DNA from: Hyphomonadaceae bacterium
Lineage (GTDB): Bacteria > Pseudomonadota > Alphaproteobacteria > Caulobacterales > Aquidulcibacteraceae
Assembly: GCA_022841905.1 (NCBI GenBank)
Contig: JALHQO010000005.1
Span: forward strand, 62,001-126,000
Direction: 5' to 3'
DNA: 64,000 nt
Shown: piece by piece, positions 15,949-55,230 of the stretch
Layout of the letters: every line of letters begins with the position of its first letter
Numbering within the stretch: the stretch's first letter is position 1
Made by a program: the position numbers and the translations under genes
The notes under the pieces: generated by a model
Seen by the model: the letters and a program-made list of their open reading frames with translations, nothing else
What the model was told of the DNA's origin: nothing
Database searches by the model: none

Positions 15949-16932
15949 ATGTACGGACAAGCGCACCCGCCCCGCCGCGACCTCTATCCCGCGATCGAAG
16001 CGTCACAGACCGAGATGCTGAAGGTCTCCGACCTGCACACGATTTATGCCGAGCAGAGCGGCGATTTGCGTGGCCGGCCGGTGGTGGCGCTGCATGGCGG
16101 CCCGGGCGGCGGGCTATCGCCGGAGATGCGCCGCTTCTTCGATCCGCGCCGCTATCGGATCGTGATGATGGATCAGCGCGGCTGCGGCCGCTCGACGCCG
16201 CACGCGGAGCTGCGCGAAAACACGACGTGGGATTTGGTCGCCGATATCGAGCGCGTGCGCGAAAAGCTTGGCATCGATAAGTGGCTGGTGTTCGGCGGCT
16301 CGTGGGGCTCGACGCTGGCGCTGGCTTATGCGGCCAAGCATCCCGAGCGCGTCGCAGGTTTGGTGCTGCGCGGCATCTTCTTGTTGCGCAAGAGCGAGAT
16401 CGACTGGTTTTACCAAGACGGCGCGAGCCACGTGTATCCGGATGCGTTCGCACGCTATGTCAGCGGCATTCCCGAAGCGGAGCGCGGCGATCTGCTGAAG
16501 GCGTTTCATACGCGGCTGATGTCCGACCATTGGGACACGCGGCTGCGCGCGGCGCGGGCGTGGGCGCGCTGGGAGGGTGAAACGATCTCCATCGCCGGCC
16601 CAAGCGCGCTGCCGTCGCGCTTCAACGAGGATCGCTTCGTGGAAGCGTTTGCGCGCATCGAGAGCCACTATTTCGTCAATGGCGGCTTCTTCGAGCGCGA
16701 TGGCTGGCTGTTGGAGCAAGCCCCGCGCCTCCGCCACATCCCCTGCCGCATCGCACAAGGCCGTTACGACATGTGCACGCCAATGCGCAGCGCCTGGGAT
16801 TTAAAGCAAGCCTGGCCGGAAGCGGAGTTGGAGATCATCCACGATGCTGGCCATAGCTCGCTGGAGCCCGGCATCGTCGATGCGCTCATTCGCGCGACCG
16901 ATTGGATGGCGGATAAAGCCCTTTGGGACTAG
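15949..16932 (+). CDS. pip: Prolyl aminopeptidase
   Basis: ALHGGPGGGLSPEMRRFFDPRRYRIVMMDQRGCGRSTPH, GGSWGSTLAL nucleophile elbow. Confidence 0.93.
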   Translation: MYGQAHPPRRDLYPAIEASQTEMLKVSDLHTIYAEQSGDLRGRPVVALHGGPGGGLSPEMRRFFDPRRYRIVMMDQRGCGRSTPHAELRENTTWDLVADIERVREKLGIDKWLVFGGSWGSTLALAYAAKHPERVAGLVLRGIFLLRKSEIDWFYQDGASHVYPDAFARYVSGIPEAERGDLLKAFHTRLMSDHWDTRLRAARAWARWEGETISIAGPSALPSRFNEDRFVEAFARIESHYFVNGGFFERDGWLLEQAPRLRHIPCRIAQGRYDMCTPMRSAWDLKQAWPEAELEIIHDAGHSSLEPGIVDALIRATDWMADKALWD

Positions 16933-17364
16933 GTACGCGGGACTTTGGTGTCTCTGGCGGATCACAAGCGGTTGGATGTTTGGGTCAAGAGCATGGACCT
17001 TGCGGTGGCGGTCTATGGCGCCGCGAAGCGAATGCCGAAGCAGGAGGAATACCGCCTGACCGCTCAAATGATCCGTGCCGCGATCTCAGTGCCCGCAAAC
17101 ATTGCCGAAGGCCATACCCGCGCGACCCGAAAAGACTTCGCTCACTTCGTGAGCATCGCCCGAGGCTCAAACGCCGAACTCGAAACGCTCTTTCTCTTGG
17201 CGGAGCGAACGGAGCTTCTGCCGGCGGACGTCACTCAGCCCTTAATCGCAAAGTCCGATGAGATCGCTCGCATGCTGAACAAACTTCATGCTCGTTTGCG
17301 CGCAACGACCTGAAGAATCATCCTCGTCCCTAGTCCCCCATCCCTCGTCCCGCACCTACCAAAG
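16921..17364. repeat. Element F: inverted G-rich arms enclosing a four-helix-bundle gene
   Basis: Left arm CTTTGGGACTAGGTACGCGGGACTTTGG; reverse complement of right arm CTTTGGTAGGTGCGGGACGAGGGATGGGGGACTAGGGACGAGG. Confidence 0.65.
16945..17313 (+). CDS. Four helix bundle protein (23S rRNA intervening-sequence protein family)
   Basis: DHKRLDVWVKSMDLAVAVYGAAKRMPKQEEYRLTAQMIRAAISVPANIAEGHTR..., family signature; TTG or GTG start. Confidence 0.9.
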   Translation: MVSLADHKRLDVWVKSMDLAVAVYGAAKRMPKQEEYRLTAQMIRAAISVPANIAEGHTRATRKDFAHFVSIARGSNAELETLFLLAERTELLPADVTQPLIAKSDEIARMLNKLHARLRATT

Positions 17365-18504
17365 CCAACCACGCGCGCCGTGTTGATCGCGGTGCAGGTC
17401 TATCGAGAGCACGATCGCGTAGGCTGCCAACACGGTGAGCATGGCGGTTCCGCCGAAGCTGATGATGGGGAGCGGAATGCCGACGACGGGCACTAGGCCG
17501 ATCACCATCGCGGTGTTGATGAAGACGTAGCAGGCCACGGTGGCGGCGACGCCGGCGGCGGCGAGTTTGCCGAAGAGTGAGCGCGCCCGCAGCGCCACTT
17601 GCATGGTGAGACCCATGAGCGCGGCGAACAGGCCGAGCACGAGGAAGCCGCCGAGCAGGCCGAACTCTTCAACGATCATCGTGAAGATGAAGTCGGTGTG
17701 TTTTTCGGGCAGGAAGTCGAGCTGGCTTTGCGTGCCTTGCAGATAGCCGCGGCCAAACAAGCCGGCTGAACCAATGGCGATTTTCGATTGCAGTACGTGA
17801 TAGCCGGCGCCGAGCGGATCGTCAGTGATGCCGAGGAAGACGTTGACACGGTCGCGCTGATATTGGTGAAGCACGCTGGTGTAGGCGAAGATCGCGCCTC
17901 CCACCGCGACGACAGCGCCGGCGGCGACGATGCGCCAAAGCAAGCCGCCCAGGAACATGACGACGAGGCCAGCCATCAGGATCAGCATGGCGGTGCCGAG
18001 GTCGGGCTGGTGCATAACGAGCCCAACGGGCGCGGCGATCATCAAGAACGGCGGCACGATCCAAAGCACGGTGCCGGTTTTGCGCGCGTCGAGCTGATGG
18101 TAATAGCGCGCCAGCGCCAACACGATCGCGATCTTCATGAACTCGGACGGTTGCAGCGAGAGCGGGCCGAGATCGAGCCAACGCTGGGCGCCCATGCGCG
18201 TCGCGCCGAACAATTCAACCGCCACCAGCAACAACAATGCGCCGGCATAGAGCGGATAAGCGATCGCCAGCCAGAAGCGCGCATCGAGCACCAGAGCCGC
18301 GATCAGGATCACGCTCATCGCCGCGGCGAAGCGGATGCCGTGCGTGAGCGGCATGTCCGTCCAGGCGCCGGATGACACCGAGAAGTGCATCATCACGCCA
18401 ACGCAGGCGATGGCGCAGAGCACGGTGATGATCTGCCAGTTGAGCTTCCGGAAGCGCTCGAAGATCGTGTTGCCGCCGCTGCTGAAGAGCGCTGAAGCGG
18501 TCAT
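17356..18504 (-). CDS. rodA: Rod shape-determining protein RodA
   Basis: SEDS family, FLPEKHTDFIFTMIVEEFGLLGG, GIPLPIISFGGTAML. Confidence 0.95.
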   Translation of the reverse strand: MTASALFSSGGNTIFERFRKLNWQIITVLCAIACVGVMMHFSVSSGAWTDMPLTHGIRFAAAMSVILIAALVLDARFWLAIAYPLYAGALLLLVAVELFGATRMGAQRWLDLGPLSLQPSEFMKIAIVLALARYYHQLDARKTGTVLWIVPPFLMIAAPVGLVMHQPDLGTAMLILMAGLVVMFLGGLLWRIVAAGAVVAVGGAIFAYTSVLHQYQRDRVNVFLGITDDPLGAGYHVLQSKIAIGSAGLFGRGYLQGTQSQLDFLPEKHTDFIFTMIVEEFGLLGGFLVLGLFAALMGLTMQVALRARSLFGKLAAAGVAATVACYVFINTAMVIGLVPVVGIPLPIISFGGTAMLTVLAAYAIVLSIDLHRDQHGARGWLW

Positions 18505-20498
18505 GCGCGGCCTCCTGCGATGGCGGCGTCCAGCTCGGCCAAGCGCGCCGGCTCGCGGCGTGAAGGATCGCGCATCAAGGTGGCGCGCATGATCTCGCGC
18601 GCGATCGGTCCGGCGACCGAGGACCCAGCGCCGCCGTGTTCGACAACGACAGCGCAGGCGTAGCGCGGCTCGTGCCAGGGGCCGAAGCAGCAGAACAAAG
18701 CGTTATCGCGGAAACGCCACTCGATGGTTGAGTAATGCCGTCCGCGCAGCGCGTCCGTCAGCGCGCGCACTTGCGCAGTGCCGGTCTTGCCGGCGATCTG
18801 AACCGGCTCCCAGCCGCGCGTCTCTGGCGTGATCTCCACTGCGGCACCGGTTTCCGGATGGCGCACGAGTTGGAGATCGCCGGCGCGACGCGCGGTGCCG
18901 CCGCCTTCATTGCACACGCCCCACATGCCGTCGCGCACGCGCGCCAGATGCTCGGCTTCGATGCCATTCATGCGCGGGGCCGGCCCTGGTTCGCGCACCC
19001 CAGGCGCATCGCGCACGAGACGCGGCACGACAGCGTGGCCGTTATTGCCAAGGCGCGCGGCCATGACGGCGAGCTGCAGCGGCGTTACACCCATCGCGCC
19101 CTGCCCGATGCCGTAGTTCACGGTGAGACCACCCGTCCAGGGCTCGCCACGGTTTTCGCGCCACCAGACTGGATCGGGAATGAGGCCGGCGCGAATGTTC
19201 GGCACGCTGACATCGAATACTTCGCCCAAGCCAAATTGACGCGAGACGGCTGCGATGCGTTCAGGACCGGCGCGCAGCGCGGCTTGATAGAAATAAACGT
19301 CGCACGAAACTTTCAGCGCGTTGTGCAGATTGACGCGGCCATGGCCGTTGCGTTGCCAGCAGCGGAAGGTGCGGCCGCCATAATAGAAGCCGCCGCCGCA
19401 GCTGACGTGCCAATCGTCTTCGACGCCGGCTTGCTTGGCGGCGATGCCGACGATCATCTTGAAGGTAGAGCCCGGCGCGTAAACGCCGGTCACCGTCTTG
19501 TGGTAGAGCGGCTTTTTCTCATCGAGATTGTAGGCGTCGAAATCGGCTTGGCCGATGCCGTTGACGAACAGGTTGGGATCGAAGCCCGGCGCGGAGGCCA
19601 TCACCAACATATCGCCGTTGTGAATATCCATCACCACGGCGGAGCCGGCTTGCTCGCCGAAATTCTGCATCGCGGTGCGCTGCAATTCGTGATCGAGCGT
19701 GAGCACAAGGCCAGAGCCACGCACCGGTTCGCGGCGCTCGGTTTCATCCTCGCCCTGCTCGACGCCGCGCGCATTGACGATGACTTTGCGCCAGCCCGCA
19801 TCGCCGTGCAGGACGGTTTCCATCGATGCTTCAAGGCCGGCCTTGCCGACGCGCACTTGCGGATTGCGCAGATACATCGCGCGCGCGGCGCCAGCGGCTG
19901 GGTCTTCGAGCGCTAGGTCGACATCACGCTGCGTTGGCTTTTGCACGTAGCCGATCGGGTGCGCGTAGACGACGTCATAGGGATAGGCGCGCACATCGGC
20001 GGAGGTGGCGACAATGCCGCGCAACTCCGGCAAGCGCACATTGATGGCGTTGAACTCTTCCCAGGTTAGGCCTTCTTTCAAAGGCTGCGGCTCATAGCGC
20101 GAGCCGCCGCGCACGCGGATGATGGCCCGGCGCGCCCATTCGGAATCGAGCCCGAGAATAGTGGCGACGCGGCCAACCACCTCTTCCATATCGTCAACGT
20201 CGTTCTGGATGACGGCGACGAGATAATCCTTGCTGGTCTGGGCGAGGATGGTGCCGAAGCGATCGAAGATGACGCCGCGCGGCGGCGGCACGATGCGGGT
20301 ATCGAAGCGATTTTCGTCGGCGGCGGCGGTGTATTGCTGGCTGATCAGGTTTTCAGCCTGCAGCTGCGCCATGCGAAACAGGATCGCGCCCATGACGCCG
20401 GCACCGACGAACGACATCAAAGCCGCGCGCCGCGAGAAGATCACGTTGGCGTCGCGCTTCGGCAGCGTGGAGCCGACTTTCTTGCCGCGCTTGCTCAT
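18501..20498 (-). CDS. mrdA: Penicillin-binding protein 2
   Basis: YAPGSTFKMIVGIAA (SxxK), transpeptidase KTGTAQV motif. Confidence 0.95.
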   Translation of the reverse strand: MSKRGKKVGSTLPKRDANVIFSRRAALMSFVGAGVMGAILFRMAQLQAENLISQQYTAAADENRFDTRIVPPPRGVIFDRFGTILAQTSKDYLVAVIQNDVDDMEEVVGRVATILGLDSEWARRAIIRVRGGSRYEPQPLKEGLTWEEFNAINVRLPELRGIVATSADVRAYPYDVVYAHPIGYVQKPTQRDVDLALEDPAAGAARAMYLRNPQVRVGKAGLEASMETVLHGDAGWRKVIVNARGVEQGEDETERREPVRGSGLVLTLDHELQRTAMQNFGEQAGSAVVMDIHNGDMLVMASAPGFDPNLFVNGIGQADFDAYNLDEKKPLYHKTVTGVYAPGSTFKMIVGIAAKQAGVEDDWHVSCGGGFYYGGRTFRCWQRNGHGRVNLHNALKVSCDVYFYQAALRAGPERIAAVSRQFGLGEVFDVSVPNIRAGLIPDPVWWRENRGEPWTGGLTVNYGIGQGAMGVTPLQLAVMAARLGNNGHAVVPRLVRDAPGVREPGPAPRMNGIEAEHLARVRDGMWGVCNEGGGTARRAGDLQLVRHPETGAAVEITPETRGWEPVQIAGKTGTAQVRALTDALRGRHYSTIEWRFRDNALFCCFGPWHEPRYACAVVVEHGGAGSSVAGPIAREIMRATLMRDPSRREPARLAELDAAIAGGRA

Positions 20499-21007
20499 CG
20501 GCGCGCCCCCGCACGCTGCGAGGCCGAGGCGCTCATATAAAGCGGGCGCACCAGCGGAAAGAGAATGGCGGTGATGACGGCGGCTTCGGCGTACGGCCCG
20601 ACCGACACGTTGCGGCCAAGTCCGAGCGGCGCGACGATGTAGGCGATGCCGATCGTGATCAGCGTGGTGACGATGAAGCCGCCCCAGAGCGACACGATGT
20701 TCGGCGCCGACATCACAACAGCGGCGACGCGGCCAACTAGGAAGGCCGAGAGATAAAGCACGGCGAACAGCCCGTACGGGCCGCCGGCGAGTTGATCGTG
20801 CAGCAAGCCGAGTGCTGCGAGCGTCGTCGGGGCGCGCCAGCCGCTTTCATCTTCGGCGGCCCAACCGTACGCGGCCCAAAGCACGGCAAGCGGCATGGGC
20901 GGCTGCGCGAAGATCGGGCCGAGCGGCAATGCAGGCAGGATCACGCTCAGCACGGCGAGCGCGAGACCCCAAGCCCGCAGCGCGGCGCGGCTGGGGGGCC
21001 GGATCAC
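20495..21007 (-). CDS. mreD: Rod shape-determining protein MreD
   Basis: Position between mreC and mrdA, about 5 hydrophobic segments, LGLLHDQLAGGPYGLFAVLYL. Confidence 0.85.
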   Translation of the reverse strand: MIRPPSRAALRAWGLALAVLSVILPALPLGPIFAQPPMPLAVLWAAYGWAAEDESGWRAPTTLAALGLLHDQLAGGPYGLFAVLYLSAFLVGRVAAVVMSAPNIVSLWGGFIVTTLITIGIAYIVAPLGLGRNVSVGPYAEAAVITAILFPLVRPLYMSASASQRAGARR

Positions 21008-22131
21008 TCTTGTGGCTCCGCTGGCGGCGACGCAGGCGGCGCTTCGGGTTGCGGCTGTGGTGTTTCGACCGGCGCAGGTGCGGCGGCTTGCGGCTGAACC
21101 ACGCGCGGCGGGCGCGGCGCGGCGGGGGGCGGTGTTGGCGTCGTCGGCGCCGGTGTCACGGTTTCACGACCGACAGCGTTGACCGACGACGCGGAGGCGA
21201 GCGGCGGTCCGCCGTCATCGACAAGCGAATCTTCCGGCCGCTCAATGCCGACGAACGGCAGGATGCGCACGAAATCGATCGGGCGCTGCGAGGCGGCGAG
21301 CGCCACGCGCCACTGGCCGTCATTGCTCGCGCGCGCAACGCCAACAGGAATGCCGCGCGGATAGAGGCCACCGTCTCCCGAGGTGACGATACGCTCGCCT
21401 TCGCGCAGGCTTTGCGCGCCGACGATGAAGTCAAGGCGCGGCGCCTGCATCTGGAACGGGTGCGTGTAGAGATCGGGCGGACGCGTCGCCTGCCCCGCCA
21501 GTACGGCGCGCACGCGCGAGGCTTCGCCCATCACCGGAATACGCGAGTTATAATCGTCGAGCATCAGGATGCGGGCAGAGCGCCCGCCAACGCTGACAAC
21601 CCGCCCGATCAAGCCGTTCTCGTTGACGGCGATGTAGCCGACGCGGACGCCGTGATCGGCGCCGGCATTGGCGACGAGGGTGCGGGTAAACGGCCCGCCG
21701 CTATCGAGCACCAGTTGGGCGGCGATGGAATTATCGACATCGGCGCCTTCGCCGAACGCGTCCGCCGGCATGCGCAGAAGCGCTTCGTAGCGCGCGTTGC
21801 GTTCGGCCAAGCGCTCAGCCAGTTCGCGCCAGGCCTGCAGCTCGCGGTTTTCGCTCTCGAGCTCTTCGATGCGGTCGGCGCTATTCCAGAGGCCGGCGAC
21901 GCGGGAGAAAAAATCTTCGCCAGCGCGCGCGGGGCCAGTAGCGGCGCGCCCTGCAGCGCCGGCTGCGCCATCGCCGGCTTGTTGCGCGGCTTGGCCGAAG
22001 CCGCCATTGCGCCCAGCTTGGATGGCGACGAGGGCGACGCCGCCAATGACGAGCGCGATCGCCAAGAGCACGCCCGGAGCGATCCTCCGACCGCCGCCCG
22101 TGCGCCGCATCGCGCTCCTGCGTCTGGCCAC
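21004..22131 (-). CDS. mreC: Rod shape-determining protein MreC with proline-rich C-terminal tail
   Basis: N-terminal TM and coiled coil, GLIGRVVSVGGRSARILMLDDYNSRIPV; follows mreB. Confidence 0.93.
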   Translation of the reverse strand: MARRRSAMRRTGGGRRIAPGVLLAIALVIGGVALVAIQAGRNGGFGQAAQQAGDGAAGAAGRAATGPARAGEDFFSRVAGLWNSADRIEELESENRELQAWRELAERLAERNARYEALLRMPADAFGEGADVDNSIAAQLVLDSGGPFTRTLVANAGADHGVRVGYIAVNENGLIGRVVSVGGRSARILMLDDYNSRIPVMGEASRVRAVLAGQATRPPDLYTHPFQMQAPRLDFIVGAQSLREGERIVTSGDGGLYPRGIPVGVARASNDGQWRVALAASQRPIDFVRILPFVGIERPEDSLVDDGGPPLASASSVNAVGRETVTPAPTTPTPPPAAPRPPRVVQPQAAAPAPVETPQPQPEAPPASPPAEPQE

Positions 22132-22164
22132 GTTGTGCCCGCCTCTCTACGCGCTAGCTCGCGC

Positions 22165-23232
<1,068 letters not shown>

Positions 23233-23651
23233 TTAGGCCTTCGGCCGAATCAAGCCCTTCGTCGGACTTAACGCGGCATTCTTAACAATCTTGAGAAGAC
23301 GCCGGTCCATGAAGCGCAGTTAGGACCGAATAAGGGCGATGGGGCGTGCGCGCCGGAACTTTCGCTCCACGCTCAAGCCGCCGACCGCCCCCGTCGCCGA
23401 CGGATTGGAGATGCCGCGAGGGACGCGGGGATGCAAGGGGCGCGCCGCTTTTGCCGTTTCGTCGCCGTAACGTCGCGAAATCCCGTTATCCACAATTGGC
23501 GCGCATTAAGGGTGGCGCTTGTGTTGCGAGCAAGCCGCGTCATCCTGACCATAATGCCACAGCGTCCGCCTGACTGGGGCGCGCGCTTGCCGCGCGGGCG
23601 CCGGCGCCCGATTATTTCAGTGGGACAACCTTTGGTCAGGGCGGGGATTTC

Positions 23652-25205
23652 TTGATCCGCAAGGCGGCACGATTTCTAGCGGCGGCGCTCTTCGTGGCGC
23701 TCGCCGGCCCGGCGGTGGCTCAAACGAGCATCGACGAGGCCGAGCGCGGCATCGTGCGCGTCGTCGTCATCCTCGAAAGCCCCGAAGGCCGGATGCTCTA
23801 CGGCTCAGGCTCCGGCTTTGTCGTCGCGCCCAATCTTGTGGTGACCAATGCACACGTGGTCGCGGCGGCGCGGCAGCGGCCGGAGTTTGGCGTGGCCATC
23901 GTGCCCCCGGCTGGCGACGGCCTGATCGCTGCGCGCATCATCCGCTACTCGCCGCTCAGCGAACTGGCGCTGCTAGAGTTCAGCGGCGGCGCCGACCTTG
24001 AGCCGCTAACGATCTCAACCGTGGAGCCGCATGCGGGCGATGGCGTCGTGGCGCTGGGCTATCCGGACGTGGACTATCAAGGCGCCACCGGCGCCGACCT
24101 GCTCCGCCCCACCCCGCCGTCGCGCACTTCTGGTCAGATCGCCTCGCTGCGCGACCGTGCGCCGACCGGCGACAGCATCCCGACCATCAACCACCAAGCG
24201 GTGATTTCCTCCGGCTCGTCGGGCGGGCCGCTGATGGACGAGTGCGGCCGCGTTATCGGCGTCAATTCGTGGCATGTCTCCGGGGCCGACACGCGCGAAA
24301 CGCGCGGCGTATCCACCCGCGTTGGGCAGCTGCTGCAGTTTCTCGATGAAGCGGGCGTCTCGCCCAATCTCAGCGACGAACGCTGCCTCACCTTCACTGA
24401 ACGCGTTGAAGCCGAGCGCACGGCCACCATCGATGCGCTGCAAGCGCAAAACGAAGAATTGGCCAGCAAGCTGGAAACCGCTGACCGGCTGACGCGCATC
24501 GCGGTGGTGATCTTGATCGGCGGCACGCTGGCTTTGTTCGTGGCGGTGTGTGTGCTCGGCGCGGTGGTGTTGTCGCGCCGGCGGGGCGGCAACGGGCACG
24601 CGGCAGCGCCGCATCACGAGACGGTGGTGCAGCATCACGATCCCGAACCGTTCGAAGCGCCGCGCAGGCGCACTGGCGTCGTCGCCATTGTTGGCGGCGC
24701 GGCGGTAGCGGCAATCCTGATTGTGGCGGCCGGCGTGGCTCTGTTGCGCGTACGCGCCGATGGCGAGCAGCGCACGGCCGATATCCCACCGCCGGAATTC
24801 ACTGGCGCCATCACCTGCACGCTCGATCGCGACGTCAGCGTCGGCGCGCAAGGCGTCGCCGACATGAGCTTCACCGCCGCCGGCAATCTCTGCGTCAATG
24901 AGCGCACGCTTTATGCACCGCACGACGAAGGCCGCTTCCGGCGCGTCATTGTGCTTGGCGAAGCGCGGGCGATGGACATTCTCACCATCGATCCAGACAC
25001 CGGCGAATTCCGCCGCGAACGCTATCCGCTGAACGACGAGGATTTTGGCGCCGCCAACCAAGCCGTCGCGGAAAGCGGCGCCGGGCGCGGTTGTGACGGG
25101 GAAGGCGCCAGTGAAGCAGTCGCCCGGCGCAACGAAACGCTCATGCGCTTTGCGCAAGGCGAGCCGAGCCAGCGCTTGGTTTGGCGCTGCGAAGCGCGGA
25201 ACTAG
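23652..25205 (+). CDS. Trypsin-like serine protease with two internal TM helices and C-terminal domain
   Basis: GSGSGFVVAPNLVVTNAHVV, SSGSSGGPLMDECGRVIGVNSW; TM segments VVILIGGTLALFVAVCVLGAVVL and VVAIVGGAAVAAILIVAAGVALL; TTG start. Confidence 0.85.
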   Translation: MIRKAARFLAAALFVALAGPAVAQTSIDEAERGIVRVVVILESPEGRMLYGSGSGFVVAPNLVVTNAHVVAAARQRPEFGVAIVPPAGDGLIAARIIRYSPLSELALLEFSGGADLEPLTISTVEPHAGDGVVALGYPDVDYQGATGADLLRPTPPSRTSGQIASLRDRAPTGDSIPTINHQAVISSGSSGGPLMDECGRVIGVNSWHVSGADTRETRGVSTRVGQLLQFLDEAGVSPNLSDERCLTFTERVEAERTATIDALQAQNEELASKLETADRLTRIAVVILIGGTLALFVAVCVLGAVVLSRRRGGNGHAAAPHHETVVQHHDPEPFEAPRRRTGVVAIVGGAAVAAILIVAAGVALLRVRADGEQRTADIPPPEFTGAITCTLDRDVSVGAQGVADMSFTAAGNLCVNERTLYAPHDEGRFRRVIVLGEARAMDILTIDPDTGEFRRERYPLNDEDFGAANQAVAESGAGRGCDGEGASEAVARRNETLMRFAQGEPSQRLVWRCEARN

Positions 25206-25208
25206 CGC

Positions 25209-26516: not shown

Positions 26517-26564
26517 CGGAGGAGGCTAACACGACGTTTTCCGATTGTGTGCGAAAAGACGTCC

Positions 26565-27344: not shown

Positions 27345-27385
27345 CGGGCGCCCTCGTCGCGCGGGGCGACGCGGCGGTCAAGCGA

Positions 27386-27811
27386 TCATGCCCGCTGGGG
27401 GCGCCGGCCGATAATGGCGCTCAAGTCGAAAGCCCGGGTGGCGGCGGCGTTGCGCGAGCCTTTGGCGTCCGGGATTTCCATGTCGTTCATGCGCGGATGG
27501 AGGCCCTTGATCAGGTCCTCCTCGATCCGGCGGCGATCAACTTCGTCGCGGATCGGGCCCAGCACATAGCGTTCAGTGGCGCCGTAATACCAATAGGCAC
27601 GCGCCCACTTCTCGTGGCCGAGCAGGCGCGAGCGGAGATCGCTGGCTTTGCCAACATAGAGCGGCTCCATCAGGAAACCCCAGCGGCGGCGGACGAACAC
27701 ATAGATGCCGCCGACGCCCTGTGGCGGCAGACCCTTCTTGGTCAGCACGCATTTGAAACGATAGCGGCGGCCCGACGCGCCGCGCCAGGAATGCGCTCCG
27801 AAGAAAAACAT
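27386..27811 (-). CDS. GIY-YIG nuclease family protein
   Basis: VGGIYVFVRRR...LYVGKASDLRSRLLGHEKW...EEDLIKGLHPRMND. Confidence 0.8.
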   Translation of the reverse strand: MFFFGAHSWRGASGRRYRFKCVLTKKGLPPQGVGGIYVFVRRRWGFLMEPLYVGKASDLRSRLLGHEKWARAYWYYGATERYVLGPIRDEVDRRRIEEDLIKGLHPRMNDMEIPDAKGSRNAAATRAFDLSAIIGRRPQRA

Positions 27812-27913
27812 GGTCCGCGTCTCCCGATCTGAAGCGCGGAAGCTCGACCGCGAATCGTAAATGCGCCGTTAAGAGATTGCGCCCGGAACGCGGCGGCGCA
27901 ATGCTTGGATCAG

Positions 27914-41280: not shown

Positions 41281-41372
41281 GTTAGGGATTAGGGGTTGGG
41301 GGCTAGGGATTGGCGAGGGTTCCAAGCAATATCGATTGCTCCCCTAATCCCCAATCCCTAATCCCCAGTCCC
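41281..41372. repeat. Element A: GGGATTA/GGGATTG short-period hairpin filling the miaA-serB divergent gap
   Basis: 41292-41316 pairs about 20/25 with reverse complement of the right arm; apical AGCAAT-ATCG-ATTGCT. Confidence 0.8.
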
Positions 41373-45069: not shown

Positions 45070-45160
45070 GGCTCAAGGCAGTACGGAACTAAGGCCGTAA
45101 GGCAATAGGAATTTGGCGTCCTACTGTCTAACTGCCCTAGTACCTTATTCCCGTTGAGTT
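45070..45160. repeat. Element D: imperfect hairpin filling the hflC-degP gap
   Basis: Left arm CTCAAGGCAGTACGGAACTAAGGCCGTAAGGCAATAGGA vs reverse complement of right arm CTCAACGGGAATAAGGTACTAGGGCAGTTAGACAGTAGGA (about 30/39). Confidence 0.75.
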
Positions 45161-47127: not shown

Positions 47128-47247
47128 CAGAAATCTCGTCCCCGCCGTTCTGGTAGTTCGTACGCGCCAGTTCTGGCAGCCGATGACCTAGCGCTTGCCG
47201 CGCTTGGTCGTGCGCCGATATGTGGCCCCTGTGCTAAGGGATCAAGC

Positions 47248-48324
47248 ATGAACAACCAGTTGGCGGACCTCAAAGAAGCTGTGAAATCGCGTCTCGACGC
47301 GATTAAGGACCCGTTGAGCGGCAAGGGTTTGTTCACGTCTGGCCGCATTTCGGGGCTTGAGGTCGGCGAAGGCGGCAAGGTCTCGTTCACGATTGAAGCG
47401 CCGGCGGACGCGCCGGAGCGCTTTGTTCCCTTGCGCGATCGCGCTGAAGCGGAGGCGCGCGCGGTGCGCGGCGTCACGAGCGTCATCGCCGTGCTGACAG
47501 CACACGAAGCAAAGCCCGCCAGCACAGGCGGCGTGGCGCAGGTTAAGCACATTATCGCTGTGGCGAGCGCAAAAGGCGGCGTCGGCAAATCAACTGTCGC
47601 GGTCAATCTCGCCTGCGCATTCGCGTCATTGGGGATGAAGACCGGCCTGCTCGATCTCGATGTGTACGGCCCCTCCGCCCCGACACTACTCGCCACGGGC
47701 GCGCGCAAACCTGAGATGAGCGACGGCAAAATCCTGAAACCGCTCGACGCGCATGGGCTGAAAACCATGTCGATCGGCTATCTGGTCGAAGCCTCATCCG
47801 CGATGATATGGCGCGGCGCCATGGCGACGAGCGCGGTGCGGCAAATGATCGATGAGGTCGCCTGGGGCGATCTCGATGTGCTGCTGCTCGACCTGCCGCC
47901 CGGCACCGGCGATGTGCAGCTTACGCTTCTGCAGCGCGTGCCGCTGGCCGGCGCGGTGATCGTCTCGACGCCGCAGGAGATGGCGCTGGCGGATGTAAGG
48001 CGCGGGCTCGCCATGTTCGAGAAAACCCACGCGCCGATTTTGGGCGTGATCGAGAACATGGCGTATTTCGAAACGCCCGACGGCGCGCGCACGCACATTT
48101 TCGGCGAAGGCGGCGCACGCCGCACTGCAGCGCAAGCCGGGGTGCCGTTCTTGGGTGAGATCCCGATCGATGTGAAATTACGCGAAGCCAGCGACGCCGG
48201 AACGCCGCTCGTCGTCAGCGCGCCGAAGCATCCGGTGTCGAAGCGGTTCATGGAGATTGCGGAAGCGGCGCTGGGGAACGTGGCGCGGTTGAGCAAGCCT
48301 GCGCCGACGATTCGAGTCGTTTGA
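47248..48324 (+). CDS. Mrp/ApbC family Fe-S cluster carrier ATPase
   Basis: IIAVASAKGGVGKSTVAVNLACAFASLG, LLDLDVYGPSAPTLL, LLLDLPPGTGDVQLTLLQRVPL. Confidence 0.95.
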   Translation: MNNQLADLKEAVKSRLDAIKDPLSGKGLFTSGRISGLEVGEGGKVSFTIEAPADAPERFVPLRDRAEAEARAVRGVTSVIAVLTAHEAKPASTGGVAQVKHIIAVASAKGGVGKSTVAVNLACAFASLGMKTGLLDLDVYGPSAPTLLATGARKPEMSDGKILKPLDAHGLKTMSIGYLVEASSAMIWRGAMATSAVRQMIDEVAWGDLDVLLLDLPPGTGDVQLTLLQRVPLAGAVIVSTPQEMALADVRRGLAMFEKTHAPILGVIENMAYFETPDGARTHIFGEGGARRTAAQAGVPFLGEIPIDVKLREASDAGTPLVVSAPKHPVSKRFMEIAEAALGNVARLSKPAPTIRVV

Positions 48325-48327
48325 GCC

Positions 48328-48942
48328 ATGCCCGCCCTGCAGCGCTACGAGCTGGATCAACGGGCGCTGGACTACATCGTTGGCACTTTGACTGACGAGC
48401 ACACATTGAGCGTTGCCGTGCGGCGCCTGATCACGACTGTTCCGGGCCAACTCTTTACATTGGCGCCGCCAGGACTGGACCTCACAACTCATCGCTTCCA
48501 ATGGGGCGGCTTGCTCGCGGAGAACATCGAACGCGCCAGTGAATCCTATCGCGCCACTCATGGTCCGCTTGTTCCGATCGAATCTCTCACTGACGACGAG
48601 GCGCTGCTACTGCACGCCGAACTACAGCGTATCCCCGGAAGTGTGTGCATCCTTGACGACATCACGCCGCACTGGAGCGAACTCGAAGACCCTGGCCCGC
48701 TCGCATTTGGTATCGGCCAAGAAGTCTATCACTTGGCGCGCGCCAATATGGGCGCAGAAACGCTCGCCGAGCTTCTATCGCTTGGTGAAGCCTTCTGGCA
48801 TCGCCTCGCAGTCGTCTGCGCCCAGGGCTTGAAGCTGCCGGCAACGGCGGAGCAGCTGCTCGCGTGCGTCGATAGTGCGACTTTGATTACCTGCACTGCG
48901 TTCGACGCCGAAGGCTTTGTGGCCTGGCAGCGCCTAGCTTAG
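48328..48942 (+). CDS. Hypothetical protein (204 aa)
   Basis: Long ORF directly after mrp-like gene; no family recognised. Confidence 0.65.
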   Translation: MPALQRYELDQRALDYIVGTLTDEHTLSVAVRRLITTVPGQLFTLAPPGLDLTTHRFQWGGLLAENIERASESYRATHGPLVPIESLTDDEALLLHAELQRIPGSVCILDDITPHWSELEDPGPLAFGIGQEVYHLARANMGAETLAELLSLGEAFWHRLAVVCAQGLKLPATAEQLLACVDSATLITCTAFDAEGFVAWQRLA

Positions 48943-50208
48943 CTCAAACGTGATCGGCAGCGCTTTTAGCCCACTGACGAAGAAGCTTTCGCTGAGCTTG
49001 GGCTCGCCTGCGAGTTCGACTCGCTTCAGACGCGGCAACAGTTCTTCATAGAGAATACGCATTTCTAACCGCGCCAAATGCTGGCCCAGACACAAGTGCG
49101 CGCCGTTGCCGAAGGCGAGTTGGCGGTTGGGTTTGCGGTCGATGTCGAACGCATCCGGGTTCGGAAACACTTCTTCGTCGCGATTGCCGGAGGCGTAGCA
49201 AAGCATCAGCCAATCGTTCGCTTTGATCTGGCGGCCACGCAACTCCGTGTCGGCGCTGGCCGAGCGCATGAAGGTTTTCACCGGCGTCGCCCAGCGGATC
49301 GCTTCTTCGATCAAAGCCGGCACCAGCGTAAGATCGGCGCGCACGCGTTCTAGCAAACCAGGCACGGTGGCGAGCGCCCACATCGCGGCGGCAGTGGACG
49401 ATGACGTCGTGTCGTGTCCGGCCGTGGCGATGATCGTGAAGTATCCGGTGCGCTCGAACGGCGGCAGCGGCGCGCCATCGATCTCGGCGTTGGCGAGGAG
49501 CGTGGCCAAATCATCGCGCGGATTGGCGCGGCGATCGGTAGTGATCGCCTCGAAATAGTCTGTGAAATCCTGCAGCACGGCCAATAAGAGTTGCAAATAT
49601 TGTTCGTTGGTCAGCGCATCCTGGAAACGCTTCGTATCGGGGTCGGTCGCGCCGAACAATTCCTGCGTCAGCCGCAGCATGCGCGGGAAATCGACTTCCG
49701 GCACGCCCAGCACGTTCATCACCACGCGTAGCGGATAGTGCAGCGCTACGTCCTTGACGAAATCGCATTGCCCCGGCAACGCCGCGAAATCGGCGACGGC
49801 TTGCTGCGCCAGCGCCCGAATGTCCCCTTCGCGCTTCTTCACGTTCGCCGGCATGAACCACGCCTGCGTCAGCAGCCGATACTTCATGTGATCCGGCTCA
49901 TCCATCTGCACCAGCGAGCGCACCAGATGCGGGGTGCCGGTGATGGCGCGAGCGCGCCCCTCCCCGCCTTTGTTCATCAGCGTCGTGCCGCGCTGGCCGC
50001 TCAGATAGAGCGCGTTATTGCGGCTGATCTCCAAGATGTCAGCGTGCTTGGTGACCACCCAGAACGGATCGAAACCCTCAGGCTCCGCCACGCCAAGCGG
50101 ATTGTTCGCGCGCATCCAGCGATAAGCGTCGAAGAGAGCGGGCGTGGCGTAGGCCGGCGCGCTGACCAAGGTTTGCGCAATGTCATGCGGCAGCTTCACA
50201 TCGATCAT
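48934..50208 (-). CDS. Cytochrome P450
   Basis: I-helix TIIATAGHDTTSSS, ExxR-like EEAIRWATPV, heme loop LAFGNGAHLCLGQHLARLEMRI. Confidence 0.95.
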   Translation of the reverse strand: MIDVKLPHDIAQTLVSAPAYATPALFDAYRWMRANNPLGVAEPEGFDPFWVVTKHADILEISRNNALYLSGQRGTTLMNKGGEGRARAITGTPHLVRSLVQMDEPDHMKYRLLTQAWFMPANVKKREGDIRALAQQAVADFAALPGQCDFVKDVALHYPLRVVMNVLGVPEVDFPRMLRLTQELFGATDPDTKRFQDALTNEQYLQLLLAVLQDFTDYFEAITTDRRANPRDDLATLLANAEIDGAPLPPFERTGYFTIIATAGHDTTSSSTAAAMWALATVPGLLERVRADLTLVPALIEEAIRWATPVKTFMRSASADTELRGRQIKANDWLMLCYASGNRDEEVFPNPDAFDIDRKPNRQLAFGNGAHLCLGQHLARLEMRILYEELLPRLKRVELAGEPKLSESFFVSGLKALPITFELS

Positions 50209-50288
50209 TGGCGGCGCCTCCGTCGCGACTGTGCGCAAGGCGCCCTGCGCACGCAACTATCCGCAACGGAAGCGGTCGTGCGGAAACG

Positions 50289-50305
50289 AAAAAGGGGCCG
50301 ACCCC
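50289..50305 (-). terminator. Rho-independent terminator
   Basis: On minus strand GGGG-TCGG-CCCC followed by TTTTT, downstream of outer-membrane ORF. Confidence 0.65.
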
Positions 50306-50338
50306 TTAGGATCGACCCCTTCATCAGTCTTGCTTACG

Positions 50339-51475
50339 CTACTGATCAGAAGCGACGCGAAACTTCGAAGATGAAGTCGTGCGAAACGATGTCGGTTTCG
50401 ACGTCGTCTTCGCCAATGTTCGGGATGTTGAAATAGCGATAGCCGAAGCCATACGCGAAGCCCGACTCGGTGCGGTAGCTGGCGCCGACGCCAAGTTGCC
50501 ACGCGAAGCCAGAGTCGCTGGCTTCCGCTTGGTAGTCGTCATAATACCCCGTGAACGCAAACTCGGCTTCGACATCAGCCGCGCCGACGCCGCCACCAAG
50601 ATAGAAGGTCCAGTTGTTGCCGGCGTCGATGTTGTACCAGGCGTTAGCCATGACCGCCGTCGAGGCGAGACTGCCATCGACTGCCAACGTTTCATAGACT
50701 GGCGTCGGCCATACGAGTTCGTTAGCGTCCGCCTCGCGGTGCGACACCTCACCCTCGAACAGCCAGTTGCGAGGTCGTCGAAAATCTTGGCCGCAGTGTA
50801 GCAAAGGACACGCAACGTCACCGAAGGTTCCGGCGTCTGCGCAATCACCTTCACGATGTCGTCGATAATTGGGTCGCCCGCCTTGACCTTCGAAAGCCGC
50901 GCGAGCGTGTTCCATGCAAGCGCAAATCCAGGTGTATTCTTGGTGAGTTTGGTTAGTAGCTCTCGAGATTCCTCTTTGCGGCCAAGGTCGCTAAAAAGGC
51001 GCGCTTGCTCGTAGTCGGCGGTAACTGAACCACCACGCTTCTCACGCAGCGTTTCGATAAAATACTCAGCTTCCTTGAGGTTTCCGGCCTGGCGATGGGC
51101 GTGAATGAGATTGCCATACGCTTCGATGATCTCGGGTCGTAAGGCGATTGCGTATTCAAGAGATTCAATCGCCTGCTCGAAGCGGCGCGCGCGTACTGCG
51201 GCGCGACCCAGATTATTGAGAATAAGCCCATCCTTGGGCCGCGCGCGTGACGCACGCTGCAGCAAATCCAGCGCGCGCTCGTTGCGGTTCTTTTCGGACT
51301 GGATGACCCCCAAGAGATTGAGCGCGTCCGGATGCGACGGCACACGCTCCAACACCTTTATATAAGTCGCTTCCGCCTCATCGACGCGACCTTCCTGGTG
51401 CGCCTTTACTGCGGCCTCAAACACGGCTTGAAGGCGCGCGAATTCAGGGGGTTGGATTGGGCCTGGTGCCGTCAT
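50339..51475 (-). pseudogene. TPR-repeat protein, C-terminally truncated and read out of frame into the outer-membrane gene
   Basis: TPRs through ...TLRVLCYTAAKIFDDL, then nonsense-like Ser/Arg/Thr-rich tail overlapping the real outer-membrane frame. Confidence 0.65.
50346..50768 (-). pseudogene. N-terminally truncated outer-membrane beta-barrel protein
   Basis: NWLFEGEVSHREADANELVW...WTFYLGGGVGAADVEAEF...GVGASYRTESGFAYGFGYRYF...HDFIFEVSRRF (terminal F); no signal peptide in this frame. Confidence 0.65.
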
Positions 51476-51526
51476 TGATCTCTCCACGCCCCCTTTGAGC
51501 GGATACACAGAGAGGTGGCAAGCCGC

Positions 51527-52939
51527 TTACTCCAGCCGCAACACGCGGATCGTGTTGGTTTTCCCGGCTCGGCCGAAAGGAATGCCGGCAATGACGGCGA
51601 CGCGATCGCCGACTTCGGCAATGCCAAGCTTGCGCACGGCGGCGTCGGCTTTATCGACCATTTCTTCGACGTTAGAGACGTCCTCGGTCACGACCGAGCG
51701 TACGCCCCAAACGAGCGAGAGCTTGCGCGCAGTTTCAACAAACGGCGTCAGGCCGATCACACCACAACGCGGGCGCTCACGGGCGACGCGGATCGCGCTT
51801 GAACCGGTCGAAGTGTAAGCGACCACCGCAGCACAGCCGATGACATCGGCGATGTGGCGCGCAGAGAGAGCGATGGCGTCAGCGGTGGTGGCTTGCGGCG
51901 GCGTCATATCGCGCGGCAGCGAGGACCAGTATTCCTCGTCTTCCTCCACGGCCCGGATGATGCGGTCCATGATGGCGACCGCGCTCTGCGGATGGCGCCC
52001 GACCGCGCTTTCGGCGCTGAGCATGACGGCGTCGGCGCCCTGATAAACAGCGGTGGCCACGTCGCTGGCCTCCGCCCGCGTCGGCGTCGGCGCATCGACC
52101 ATGCTTTCGAGCATGTGCGTGGCGACGATGACGGGGCGGCCAGCGGCGCGGGCGGCGCGGATAATTTTGCGCTGCGCGATCGGCACTTGCTCCGGCGGCA
52201 GCTCGACGCCGAGATCGCCGCGCGCAACCATCACAGCATCCGACGCTTCGACGATGGCTTCGATCTGCAGCAAAGCTGAGGGCTTTTCGATTTTGGAGAT
52301 GATGCCGGCGCGCTCGCCGATCAAAGCGCGCGCTTCGTGGACGTCTTCGGGATGCTGCACGAACGAGAGCGCGATGTAATCGACACCCAGGTCGAGCGCG
52401 AACGCGAGATCTTCGCGATCCTTGTCGGTTAGCGCCGAAATCGGAATGCGACGCGTTGGGACGTTGACGCCTTTTTGGTTCTTCAACACGCCACCATGAT
52501 CGACGCGCGCCTTCAGCTGCGTGCGGCCGCGCTCGATCACGGTGATCTGCAACTTGCCGTCATCGAGCTTGAGGATGTCGCCCTCCTCCAGCGCGCTGAC
52601 GAGTTCGGCGTGCGGCAAACGAATGAGACCCTGCTTGCCGGGTTCGGTGGAGGCTTCGAGTGTGACCGTTTCGTTGAACTTGAGTTTGATCTCGCCGCCC
52701 TCGAACGAGCCGACGCGAATCTTCGGCCCCTGCAAATCCGCGAACACGGCGACGGCAACGCCTGCCTGTTCCTCCGCCGCGCGGATCGAGGAGAGCCGGC
52801 GCGCGTGATCGTCCTTGCTGCCGTGGCTGAAATTCAGCCGGAAGCAATCGACGCCGGCCTGGATGAGCATGGCCAAGCGCTCCGGCGGATCGCTGGCCGG
52901 GCCCATCGTGGCGACAATCTTACAATCGCGTGCGCGCAT
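51527..52939 (-). CDS. pyk: Pyruvate kinase
   Basis: KIVATMGPASDPPERLAMLIQAGVDCFRLNFSHG, MVARGDLGVELPPEQVPIAQ. Confidence 0.97.
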   Translation of the reverse strand: MRARDCKIVATMGPASDPPERLAMLIQAGVDCFRLNFSHGSKDDHARRLSSIRAAEEQAGVAVAVFADLQGPKIRVGSFEGGEIKLKFNETVTLEASTEPGKQGLIRLPHAELVSALEEGDILKLDDGKLQITVIERGRTQLKARVDHGGVLKNQKGVNVPTRRIPISALTDKDREDLAFALDLGVDYIALSFVQHPEDVHEARALIGERAGIISKIEKPSALLQIEAIVEASDAVMVARGDLGVELPPEQVPIAQRKIIRAARAAGRPVIVATHMLESMVDAPTPTRAEASDVATAVYQGADAVMLSAESAVGRHPQSAVAIMDRIIRAVEEDEEYWSSLPRDMTPPQATTADAIALSARHIADVIGCAAVVAYTSTGSSAIRVARERPRCGVIGLTPFVETARKLSLVWGVRSVVTEDVSNVEEMVDKADAAVRKLGIAEVGDRVAVIAGIPFGRAGKTNTIRVLRLE

Positions 52940-52949
52940 GTTTTTCCCA

Positions 52950-53044
52950 GGCGGTAGGCAATAAGCAGCACGCAATAGTGAGTCTGCGCTGCCGGAGCAA
53001 CGCGGCTAACACCGCTACTGCCGCTTGCCTACTGCTATTGCCCC
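52950..53044. repeat. Element E: GGCAATA/GCAGTAGGC short-period hairpin between pyk and gst
   Basis: Left GGCGGTAGGCAATAAGCAGCACGCAATAG; reverse complement of right GGGGCAATAGCAGTAGGCAAGCGGCAGTAGCGGT; right arm includes the gst stop codon. Confidence 0.65.
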
Positions 53045-53664
53045 ATCTTGTAGGGCCCGCCCTTTTCCAGCGCGCGCTGATAGGCCGGGCGGGCTTGTTG
53101 CAGTTTTCTGACGCGAACGAGATTGGGATAGCGCTCCAGCCCGCCGCGACTGGCGCCCGCGTCGAGTACGAAGCTCATTTGAATGTCGGCGGCGGTGAAC
53201 CGATCGGCGGCGAAATAGTCGCGGCCTTCGAGGTGAGTGTTGATGAAGCTGAAATGGTTGTCGATCTCAGGCTCGACGCGCATCTGCATCAGCGGTGCGC
53301 CGTTCTCGCCCAGCATGCCGACATAGAGTTTCAGCAGCAGCGGCAACATGGCCGAGCCTTCGGCAAAGTGCAGCCAGTACAGATAGTCAAAGCGCGCAGG
53401 ATCGCCGGCCGCGACGGCGAGTTGGCCGGCGTCTTCAGTGTCCGCAAAGTACTCGATGATCGCCGCAGACTCCGCGAACACTTCGCCGTCGCGCTCGATC
53501 ACCGGCGATTTACCGAGCGGATGGATGGATTTCAGCTCTGGCGGCGCGAGACGCGTCTGCGCGTTGCGCGCGTAACGCTTCACCTCAAAGTCGAGGCCAA
53601 GTTCTTCAAGCAGCCACAGCACACGCTGCGAGCGGGATTCTTCGAGATGGTGGACGATGATCAT
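53035..53664 (-). CDS. Glutathione S-transferase family protein
   Basis: MIIVHHLEESRSQRVLWLLEELGLDFEVKRYARN. Confidence 0.93.
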   Translation of the reverse strand: MIIVHHLEESRSQRVLWLLEELGLDFEVKRYARNAQTRLAPPELKSIHPLGKSPVIERDGEVFAESAAIIEYFADTEDAGQLAVAAGDPARFDYLYWLHFAEGSAMLPLLLKLYVGMLGENGAPLMQMRVEPEIDNHFSFINTHLEGRDYFAADRFTAADIQMSFVLDAGASRGGLERYPNLVRVRKLQQARPAYQRALEKGGPYKMGQ

Positions 53665-53677
53665 GCTGGCTCCGCGT

Positions 53678-53760
53678 CGGGGTTCGGGATTCGGGAATCG
53701 GTTCTCGGGTGTGGTTTGGAGGGCGACCCGAAACCCCACCCCCGACAACCGAAACCCGCA
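53678..53760. repeat. Element B: CGGGATT/CGGGTTTCGG short-period hairpin between gst and SMP-30 gene
   Basis: 53692-53723 matches reverse complement of 53727-53758 at about 23/32; ends flush with SMP-30 stop. Confidence 0.75.
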
Positions 53761-54663
53761 TTAGTAAGGTGCAAAATTTAGCTTCAATCCCGGTTCCGGC
53801 CAGCGGACCTTCGCGAGTTGCCCTGTCGCGGACAGCGTAATGTACGCGTCGCGCATATCGGCGCCGCCAAAGGCGATGTTGGTGACGAGCGGATCGGGCA
53901 GCGGCGTGTGTGTGAAAGCGCCAGCGGGCGTGATCGTGGTGACGCCGCCATTGAGCAGCGTGGCTACGCAGACATCGCCATTGGCTTGCACCGCTAAGCT
54001 GTCGAAGAAAACGTGCGCGGGATAGACGAACACGCAGCGCCCGATGGCGCCCATCGGCGGCGGCGCTACTTGGCCTTCATCAATGATATCGAACGCCCAC
54101 AATTTGCCGGCGTCGGTTTCAGCGGCGTACACGGTCTTCTCATCGGGCGAGAGGCCGACGCCGTTTAGGCCAGTGCCGCCATACGCCACCTCTTTCAGCA
54201 GCGAGCCATCGGGCTTGGCGTAATAGAGCCCGCCGCGATCGAGCGTGCGCGCATAAATTTTTCCGAGATCGGTGAACCAGATGTTTCCGGCTTTATCGAA
54301 GACGAGATCGTTGGGGCCGGAGAGTCTGCGGCCGTCGATTTTATCGTAGAGGCGCTCAATTTTGCCCGTGGCGAGATCGACGCGCTCTACGCGGCCGGTC
54401 TCGTAGTCGCGCGCGGCGCTGCCGGGGATCGTGAGCCCGCCCATGTCGTGATACTCGAAGCCGCCATTGTTGGTGACGTAGATCGCGCCGTCAGGGCCGA
54501 ACGCCGCGCCGTTGGGGCCGCCGGCCATTTGCGCGATCACTTCGCTCTTGCCGTTCCACACGCGCGTCAGCGTTTTGCGCTTGATTTCCACCAGGATGAC
54601 GCTGCCGTCCGGCATGGGGATCGGGCCTTCGGGAAATTGAAGGCCGGTTGCGATGATTTCCAT
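53761..54663 (-). CDS. SMP-30/gluconolactonase family protein
   Basis: LQFPEGPIPMPDGSVILVEI, LSGPNDLVFDKAGNIWFTDLG, GLNGVGLSPDEKTVYAAET. Confidence 0.93.
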   Translation of the reverse strand: MEIIATGLQFPEGPIPMPDGSVILVEIKRKTLTRVWNGKSEVIAQMAGGPNGAAFGPDGAIYVTNNGGFEYHDMGGLTIPGSAARDYETGRVERVDLATGKIERLYDKIDGRRLSGPNDLVFDKAGNIWFTDLGKIYARTLDRGGLYYAKPDGSLLKEVAYGGTGLNGVGLSPDEKTVYAAETDAGKLWAFDIIDEGQVAPPPMGAIGRCVFVYPAHVFFDSLAVQANGDVCVATLLNGGVTTITPAGAFTHTPLPDPLVTNIAFGGADMRDAYITLSATGQLAKVRWPEPGLKLNFAPY

Positions 54664-54723
54664 CAGGTGTCAGGTTCCAGGTGTCAAGACGCTGGCACCT
54701 GACACCAGACACCCGACGCCTGT
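54664..54723. repeat. Element C: AGGTGTC short-period hairpin between SMP-30 gene and folA
   Basis: CAGGTGTCAGGTTCCAGGTGTCA vs reverse complement of right arm CAGGCGTCGGGTGTCTGGTGTCA (18/23); flush with start and stop codons. Confidence 0.75.
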
Positions 54724-55230
54724 CTAGCGCTCCAGCACGCGGACGACGAAATCGGCATCGTCTTTCTCGCCACGCTCAACATGCTCGCGACTGACCTCAC
54801 GCCAAGCGCTAAGATCGAGGCGCAAGTGCGCGTCGCCTTCGGGCTCGAGGTTCACTTCGGTGAGGATGATGCGGTCGGCTTGTGGCAGCACGGCGTTGTA
54901 AAGCTGCGCGCCGCCGATGATGCACGCCTCCTCCGCGCCCGCCGCGATCGCCATCGCGCGCGCGGCGCCGAGCATAGCGGCGAGATCGGTGTAAACCCAC
55001 GCGCCATCCGCGACGAAATTCGCGTCGCGCGTCAGGATCAGGTTCTGGCGCCCAGGCAGCGGCTTCTTCGGCAGCGAGTCCCACGTCTTGCGCCCCATCA
55101 GAACGGGCTTGCCCATCGTCGCGGCCTTGAAACGCTTCATGTCGGACGACAGCCGCCACGGCAGCGCGCCATCGCGGCCGATAGCGCCATTCTTCGCGAC
55201 GGCGACGACGAGGGTCAGTTTGGGATTCAC
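54724..55230 (-). CDS. folA: Dihydrofolate reductase
   Basis: VVAVAKNGAIGRDGALPWRLSSDMKRFKAATMGKPVLMGRKTWDSLP. Confidence 0.96.
   Translation of the reverse strand: MNPKLTLVVAVAKNGAIGRDGALPWRLSSDMKRFKAATMGKPVLMGRKTWDSLPKKPLPGRQNLILTRDANFVADGAWVYTDLAAMLGAARAMAIAAGAEEACIIGGAQLYNAVLPQADRIILTEVNLEPEGDAHLRLDLSAWREVSREHVERGEKDDADFVVRVLER

Follow-up and report, generated by a model that had tools for sequence, protein, structure and literature searches.

What fills the space between genes at six places in one stretch of alphaproteobacterial DNA, and do the six occupants belong together? The stretch analyzed, here called the window, comprises 64,000 nucleotides (G000:C5:62001-126000) of the source genome G000, a GC-rich alphaproteobacterium of 3.56 Mb in 27 contigs. 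The six gaps, E1 to E6, are located at approximately 16.9, 41.3, 45.1, 52.95, 53.7, and 54.7 kb of the window. E1 contains a gene for a 23S rRNA intervening-sequence protein (IVP; PF05635/TIGR02436), a four-helix bundle. No IVP gene lies between the arms of E2 to E6, which we therefore class as relatives lacking an open reading frame (ORF) and not as full IVP elements. Sequence comparison leads us to regard the six gaps as probably holding one family of small (~60-450 bp) intergenic elements, in which the ORF-less hairpins would be non-autonomous relatives of the IVP element; we put the probability of this reading at about 0.68.

The E1 ORF is the sole PF05635/TIGR02436 gene detected in G000 by profile search; among the six hairpins, the initial annotation of this DNA likewise placed an ORF in the first only. 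Relatives of the encoded protein with solved structures in the PDB are 2gsc (Xanthomonas XCC0516) and 2rld. We gathered 106 IVP loci by protein or profile similarity alone, from the genus and from wider genome contigs, whose record titles cover about a dozen phyla, including Cyanobacteria, Chloroflexi, Planctomycetes, Acidobacteria, and Bacteroidota. A period-7 array adjoins the ORF at 98 of these loci. Lag 7 scored best in 89 of the 95 arrays found upstream and in 66 of the 75 found downstream; shuffled flanks gave arrays in 16 of 212, scattered over all lags. The arms are G-rich upstream and C-rich downstream at 67 IVP loci (C/C at three, G/G at one), with a median array length of 31 nt, corresponding to 4.4 units. 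The arrays fit a single heptad profile, nYAGGnR, with frequencies of 0.96 for G at position 4, 0.80 for G at position 5, 0.66 for A at position 3, and 0.84 for T/C at position 2. Because the same heptad arms flank IVP genes in about a dozen phyla, the hairpins resemble reduced copies from a single family of small mobile elements, widespread but poorly described. An IVP-like gene in G203, which matches bAvd (PF22296) better, adjoins a reverse transcriptase, and lacks heptad arrays, served as an internal control; two cyanobacterial IVPs also gave weak bAvd matches. We found no IVP relatives on phages or viral contigs.

The two arms of an element share their word, with a cyclic distance of 1.18 as compared with 2.92 between elements (permutation p=5e-4). 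The distance between words also grows with the distance between proteins, from 0 at <10% divergence to ~2.8 at 60-70% (Mantel r 0.28, p=5e-4), a correlation among loci that are not independent and to which vertical descent contributes; flank GC does not account for it (r -0.02). These comparisons suggest that the heptad word belongs to the element lineage and drifts along with the IVP protein.

The words in the six gaps had been taken as different from one another. They are instead rotations and variants of the one heptad nYAGGnR, and their profile forms CTAGGGA, TTAGGGA, GTAGGCA, TTCGGGA, and TCAGGTG are each found among the IVP-arm words. All six gaps are located between protein genes, none inside a 23S rRNA helix, and arm alignment places the G-rich arm at 5' and the C-rich arm at 3' in every one (Table 1). 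The 6-9 nt periodicity previously described for the arms resolved, by lag scoring, into period 7 for the E1 3' arm (lag-7 score 11, other lags at most 4), E2, E5, and E6, and period 8 for E3, with units AAGGCAGT/ACGGAACT/AAGGCCGT/AAGGCAAT, while the spacing in E4 is an irregular 6/7/9. Owing to the period of E3 and the degeneration of E4, their membership in the IVP-arm family is only probable.

Table 1. Features of the six gaps, in window coordinates.
Feature	Position	Strand	Description
E1 5' arm	16925..16944	+	GGGACTAGGTACGCGGGACT; pairs with E1 3' arm; overlaps the stop codon of an alpha/beta hydrolase gene lying upstream
E1 IVP ORF	16945..17313	+	122 aa from TTG; ATG at 16993 in our own gene calls; PF05635 E=1.9e-35
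E1 3' arm	17325..17360	+	C-rich CGTCCCTAGTCCCCCATCCCTCGTCCCGCACC; period 7; ends at the FtsW/RodA stop codon (convergent gene)
E2 ORF-less hairpin	41281..41372		Word GGGATTA (profile form TTAGGGA); between divergent miaA and HAD-family genes
E3 ORF-less hairpin	45070..45160		Period-8 arms, AAGGCAGT-like; between trypsin/PDZ protease and band-7 genes
E4 degenerate hairpin	52950..53044		Words GGCAATA/GGCAGTA, interrupted by indels; flanked by pyruvate kinase and GST genes; weakest of the six
E5 ORF-less hairpin	53674..53764		Word CGGGATT (profile form TTCGGGA); period 7
E6 ORF-less hairpin	54660..54723		Word AGGTGTC (profile form TCAGGTG); period 7

We scored hairpins by local self-complementarity, with mononucleotide shuffles as controls for the five ORF-less gaps and dinucleotide shuffles at the genome scale and for RNA folding. 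The ORF-less gaps scored 13-19, while their shuffles averaged 6-8 with maxima of 10-13. On the + strand, the RNA folding z was -4.25 for E2, -3.92 for E3, -3.15 for E6, -1.07 for E5, and -0.73 for E4; the minus strand of E5 folded moderately (z -2.45). E4 is a weak member of the set, given this folding value and a self-complementarity merely level with its best shuffle. The entire 444-nt E1 folded no better than its shuffles (z 0.15), with pairing confined to its ends. The initial description of the gaps as almost wholly inverted repeat holds for five of the six. Their ends do fall at start or stop codons as described. In the codon-model gene calls made for this analysis, E2 occupies the entire space between two divergent ATG codons, and E3 and E6 (54664-54723) each fill the whole gap between the flanking coding sequences.

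Our survey covered 2.42 of the 3.56 Mb (67%) of G000 and 1371 gaps, of which 52 scored at least 30, as compared with none after shuffling; the 52 include other repeat families. The excess over shuffled intergenic DNA anticipated in the initial annotation is present. Of 40 hairpins whose arms are strongly periodic, 30 had lag 7 as their unique best, while shuffled arms gave two strongly periodic hairpins, neither at lag 7. Seven of these 30 were removed by eye as other repeat families (CCCCTCC, CGTCATCC) or single palindromes. The G-rich arm is at 5' in all 23 retained, and lag-7 hairpins are found in all four orientations of neighboring genes. Intergenic DNA makes up 12%, yet 21 of the 24 lag-7 arrays lie in it. 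As for the predicted enrichment at gene boundaries, the 23 hairpins leave a median of 14 nt of their gap, as opposed to 84 nt for random gaps (0/5000 draws). The closeness of the hairpins to start and stop codons could stem from selection against disrupting genes or from a true preference. By extrapolation, the whole genome would hold roughly 35 such hairpins. Other dispersed hairpin families, without period-7 arms, also occupy G000 gaps (GGACCGCCGGC..., CGTCATTCCGG..., CCCCCTCCTCTCGAGAGGAGGGGG...), for example at C2:217158-217261, C2:245743-245896, and C6:17275-17384.

We searched a class sample of 192 genomes, 10 with and 182 without an IVP gene, for the pattern AGGN4AGGN4AGGN4AGG, counting overlapping matches separately, so that the figures are hits and not loci. 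At least five hits were found in 8 of the 10 IVP-positive genomes but in only 6 of the 182 IVP-negative ones (Fisher p=3e-9). In seven IVP-positive alphaproteobacterial genomes, arrays that do not adjoin the IVP gene have words nearer to the arms of the genome's own IVP (1.57) than to those of other genomes (2.50). The identity assignment was the best of 5040 permutations (p=2e-4), with the weakness that words were picked by hand among the matches listed. Two small genomes of the class sample, G183 and G225, carry several separate heptad arrays with no IVP gene detected; their partner may have been lost or have diverged.

We compared 29 genomes within the genus, among which G001 is the nearest to G000. 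The E1 gap is essentially empty in 13 of them, with abutting stop codons or a spacer of at most 38 nt. It holds a GGGACTA-IVP element in G000 and G001, and an AGGTGTC-IVP element in G008 and G013; in G014, G017, G018, and G028 the hairpin is ORF-less, with four additional words among them. The 5' arm of E1 is longer in G001 (GGGACTAGGGACGCGGGACTAGGGACGGGGGAG). The E2, E4, E5, and E6 gaps also vary between species. At the E2 gap, other species have a CGGGATT hairpin, a GGGGATT hairpin, or none; in the E4 gap, G003 has a hairpin with the word GGCAGTA and G012 one with TAGTCAG. E6 is missing in G001, where a different 28-nt spacer separates the same start and stop codons, and an E3-related hairpin is present in G001 and G019. 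Mapping the IVP loci of the genus onto G000 led to gaps that are empty in some cases and hold an ORF-less hairpin in others. An AGGTGTC-IVP element in G020 corresponds to an ORF-less AGGTGTC hairpin at the same gap in G000, the G007 IVP before nrdR to a GGGATTA hairpin, and a GGGACTA-IVP of G007 to a GGGACGA hairpin. These states show repeated independent gain at the same junctions.

Two of these gaps show further features. The E1-gap orthologue in G022 (L064) contains an ORF of the restriction-endonuclease-like DUF559 family (PF04480) between CCCTCGCCCCGC-type inverted ends, and the one in G007 (L078) a shortened relative, also between such ends; the E1 insertion niche may be shared by another protein family. 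In relatives, a conserved GTAGCGCA...CCCTAGAGGG segment lies in the divergent miaA/HAD spacer but is absent wherever a hairpin occupies its place, and the element may therefore replace promoter DNA there.

The cleanest case of gain or loss comes from Nostoc plasmids, where a locus between a TraM-like and a hypothetical gene, with flanks 88-94% identical, shows all three states: a plain spacer in C057 plasmids, an ORF-less GGGAAC/GGGAATA hairpin in ATCC 53789 pNsp_c, and a GGGAACA-IVP element in C052 and CCNP1411. No IVP remnants are visible in the loop of the ATCC 53789 hairpin. Two Calothrix plasmid copies were considered as a recent transposition and rejected, as both represent one shared plasmid block. 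On cyanobacterial plasmids, the gap between cas6 and cas4 in type I-D CRISPR loci is a hot spot (L338, L339, L346, L349, L350): in Anabaena 90 it contains an IVP element whose heptads span ~300 nt, in a Dolichospermum plasmid with 99% identical flanks an unrelated hairpin, in Pseudanabaena galeata an AAAAGCT/AAAAGCC IVP element, and in Nostoc UHCC 0302 no element.

Taken as one family, these elements consist of two convergent degenerate-heptad arrays (nYAGGnR, G-rich at 5', usually 4-5 units) around a loop or an IVP gene, and would spread as units. The ORF-less hairpins would carry the word of an IVP lineage found in their own or a related genome. The IVP protein, which forms a pentameric ring and is a relative of Avd, the accessory protein of diversity-generating retroelements (DGRs), probably binds the arms as RNA or single-stranded DNA, perhaps with about one heptad per subunit; the correspondence between a five-subunit ring and 4-5 heptads is suggestive, nothing more. 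Cutting and joining would be left to host enzymes, and slippage could alter arm length later. The initial annotation had proposed that ORF-less copies relate to the four-helix-bundle element as repetitive extragenic palindromes (REPs) relate to RAYT. Such a relation is supported by the near-universal heptad flanks of IVP genes, the co-variation of word and protein, the matching within genomes, and the mixed states at one site, while mobilization by IVP itself is what we infer from these patterns.

Several observations weigh against this interpretation. When G000 and G001 hairpins were compared through flank-to-flank distances, 19 sites, with flanks mostly 86-100% identical, proved mostly near-equal in length; eight were unchanged, three differed by more than 10 nt, and E6 was the clear absence in G001. 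The comparison of close strains suggested in the initial annotation thus yielded one missing hairpin and changes in arm length, with most sites nearly the same, and given these near-equal lengths the family is slow or mostly dormant here. No target-site duplication was seen in filled/empty comparisons, where the former spacer is replaced and not merely interrupted, and transposition was not observed in these genome comparisons. The six IVP-negative genomes of the class sample with at least five hits also need explaining, as do the hairpins in G017, G018, and G019 of the same genus, without a detected IVP gene. G000 itself has one IVP gene with one word, yet at least three further words (GGCAGTA, AGGTGTC, CGGGATT); those copies would therefore have to derive from IVP lineages no longer present. 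To our knowledge, IVP has no nuclease or polymerase activity, and we know of no transposase for it.

One alternative is that slippage and quasipalindrome template switching built each hairpin in place, from whatever word was present and without a mobile element, IVP genes merely tolerating such DNA. Arm lengths do vary, both among the G000/G001 sites and at the E1 arm, and slippage probably changes them. Hairpins that are seldom gained or lost between close genomes, and spacers replaced rather than interrupted, fit this origin as well. It does not, however, predict heptad arrays at 98 of 106 IVP loci, a single profile across phyla, one polarity in 23 of 23 hairpins, co-variation of word and protein, or word matching within genomes. 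This origin, also raised in the initial annotation, leaves both the IVP link and the shared profile unpredicted; in its pure form it is not supported, and we consider it unlikely.

Alternatively, the hairpins could be selected RNA structures or G-quadruplexes at gene ends (terminators, attenuators, or mRNA stabilizers), with IVP as an RNA-binding regulator. The tight placement against start and stop codons, the strong RNA folding of E2, E3, and E6, the transcribed and G-quadruplex-forming heptamers of Xanthomonas (PMC4692102), and the relation of IVP to Avd, itself a nucleic-acid partner, would all suit such a role. Against it, many relatives keep both genes intact around an empty gap while in others the gap carries different words, all four gene orientations are represented, and the GGG runs expected of a classical G-quadruplex are missing from words such as GGCAGTA, AGGTGTC, and TAGTCAG. 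Nor do the loci behave as ordinary terminators: they are not conserved in all relatives, and none of the six gap sequences contains a T run. We rejected terminators or regulatory hairpins as a general explanation on account of the empty gaps and other words in relatives, and G-quadruplexes as a common property on account of the words without GGG runs; regulation as the origin of the family seems improbable to us.

That an unrelated host enzyme, such as a Y1/HUH transposase or a reverse transcriptase, moves the hairpins with the IVP gene as a passenger is very unlikely: it would suit a protein without known catalysis, and Y1 RAYTs move REP hairpins in other bacteria (PMC3116915, PMC8266576), but a passenger would not account for the co-variation of word and protein, and a search limited to two enzyme families, RVT_1 and Y1_Tnp (PF01797), found no match to either in G000, nor in the IVP-positive G038, G063, and G069, which led us to reject a RAYT or reverse transcriptase as the resident mobilizer of G000. 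Across the class sample, a reverse transcriptase is present in 4 of 10 IVP-positive and 47 of 182 IVP-negative genomes, and Y1 in 1 of 10 IVP-positive ones.

More tentatively, and with less confidence than in the family itself, one may envisage a class of bacterial mobile element lacking any known transposase, in which a pentameric four-helix bundle recognizes convergent heptad arrays and spreads its own element and word-matched hairpins via host enzymes, word and protein co-diversifying. The 23S intervening sequences, the Xanthomonas and cyanobacterial heptamers, and DGR Avd could then be branches of one system. A relation between IVP and heptad arms would suggest a possible function for a very widespread, uncharacterized family annotated as "four helix bundle protein", and would join three puzzles, those of intervening sequences in rRNA, of heptamer repeats between genes, and of hairpins where genes end. 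It would also provide a system in which the co-diversification of a DNA word with its cognate protein can be followed both inside single genomes and across them, and the origin of the repeats would be testable because the words predict which protein should bind them.

Apart from these elements, the sole Rfam matches of the window are two overlapping models at 61420-61774, an alphaproteobacterial permuted tmRNA (RF01849, 217 bits).

Among known systems, the 23S intervening sequence (IVS) of Coxiella burnetii comprises 428 nt with an S23p/IVP ORF, terminal inverted repeats, and tandem heptamers GACAGAT upstream of the ORF in strain-variable copy number (PMC4990558). E1 resembles such IVSs in protein family, in size (~440 bp), and in terminal repeats forming a long stem that encloses the ORF. 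IVSs, however, lie within 23S rRNA and are excised by RNase III, whereas E1 to E6 lie between protein genes, and dispersed ORF-less copies with matching words are not described for them. The GGGNATC and GGGGA(C/T)T heptamers of Xanthomonas and Nostoc are intergenic, have period 7, and are located near stop and start codons; a Xanthomonas genome contains 70-75 of their convergent inverted pairs (PMC4692102). Their words equal those of E2 and E5, but they were described as one-word G-quadruplex repeats with no link to mobile elements or IVP (PMC4692102), while the class reported here includes words that do not form G-quadruplexes. The TAACTGA repeats of Beggiatoaceae, abundant intergenic heptanucleotide arrays near start codons with a proposed regulatory role (PMC4679880), are likewise comparable in setting; they are one-word direct repeats with a single inverted pair. 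The REP/REPIN-RAYT systems also combine a coding element with many ORF-less intergenic hairpins that match the resident protein lineage (PMC3116915, PMC3686654, PMC8266576). There, the protein is a Y1/HUH transposase and the arms carry fixed tags, whereas IVP is a non-catalytic four-helix bundle with heptad-array arms of drifting words, so that the match of ORF-less hairpins to resident IVP flanks, found in the seven genomes above, is REP/RAYT-like as an analogy only. Avd and bAvd are homologous to the IVP four-helix bundle (PMC10053308), but neither a reverse transcriptase nor the template and variable repeats (TR/VR) of a DGR accompany these IVP genes. The initial annotation knew of no described family matching the six gaps. 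In the open-access literature, with preprints largely outside its scope, we found no description joining IVP, heptad arms, and ORF-less hairpins. The initial statement is half right, as the separate parts have been described, namely heptamer repeats (PMC4692102) and a 23S IVS that contains both heptamers and an IVP gene (PMC4990558).

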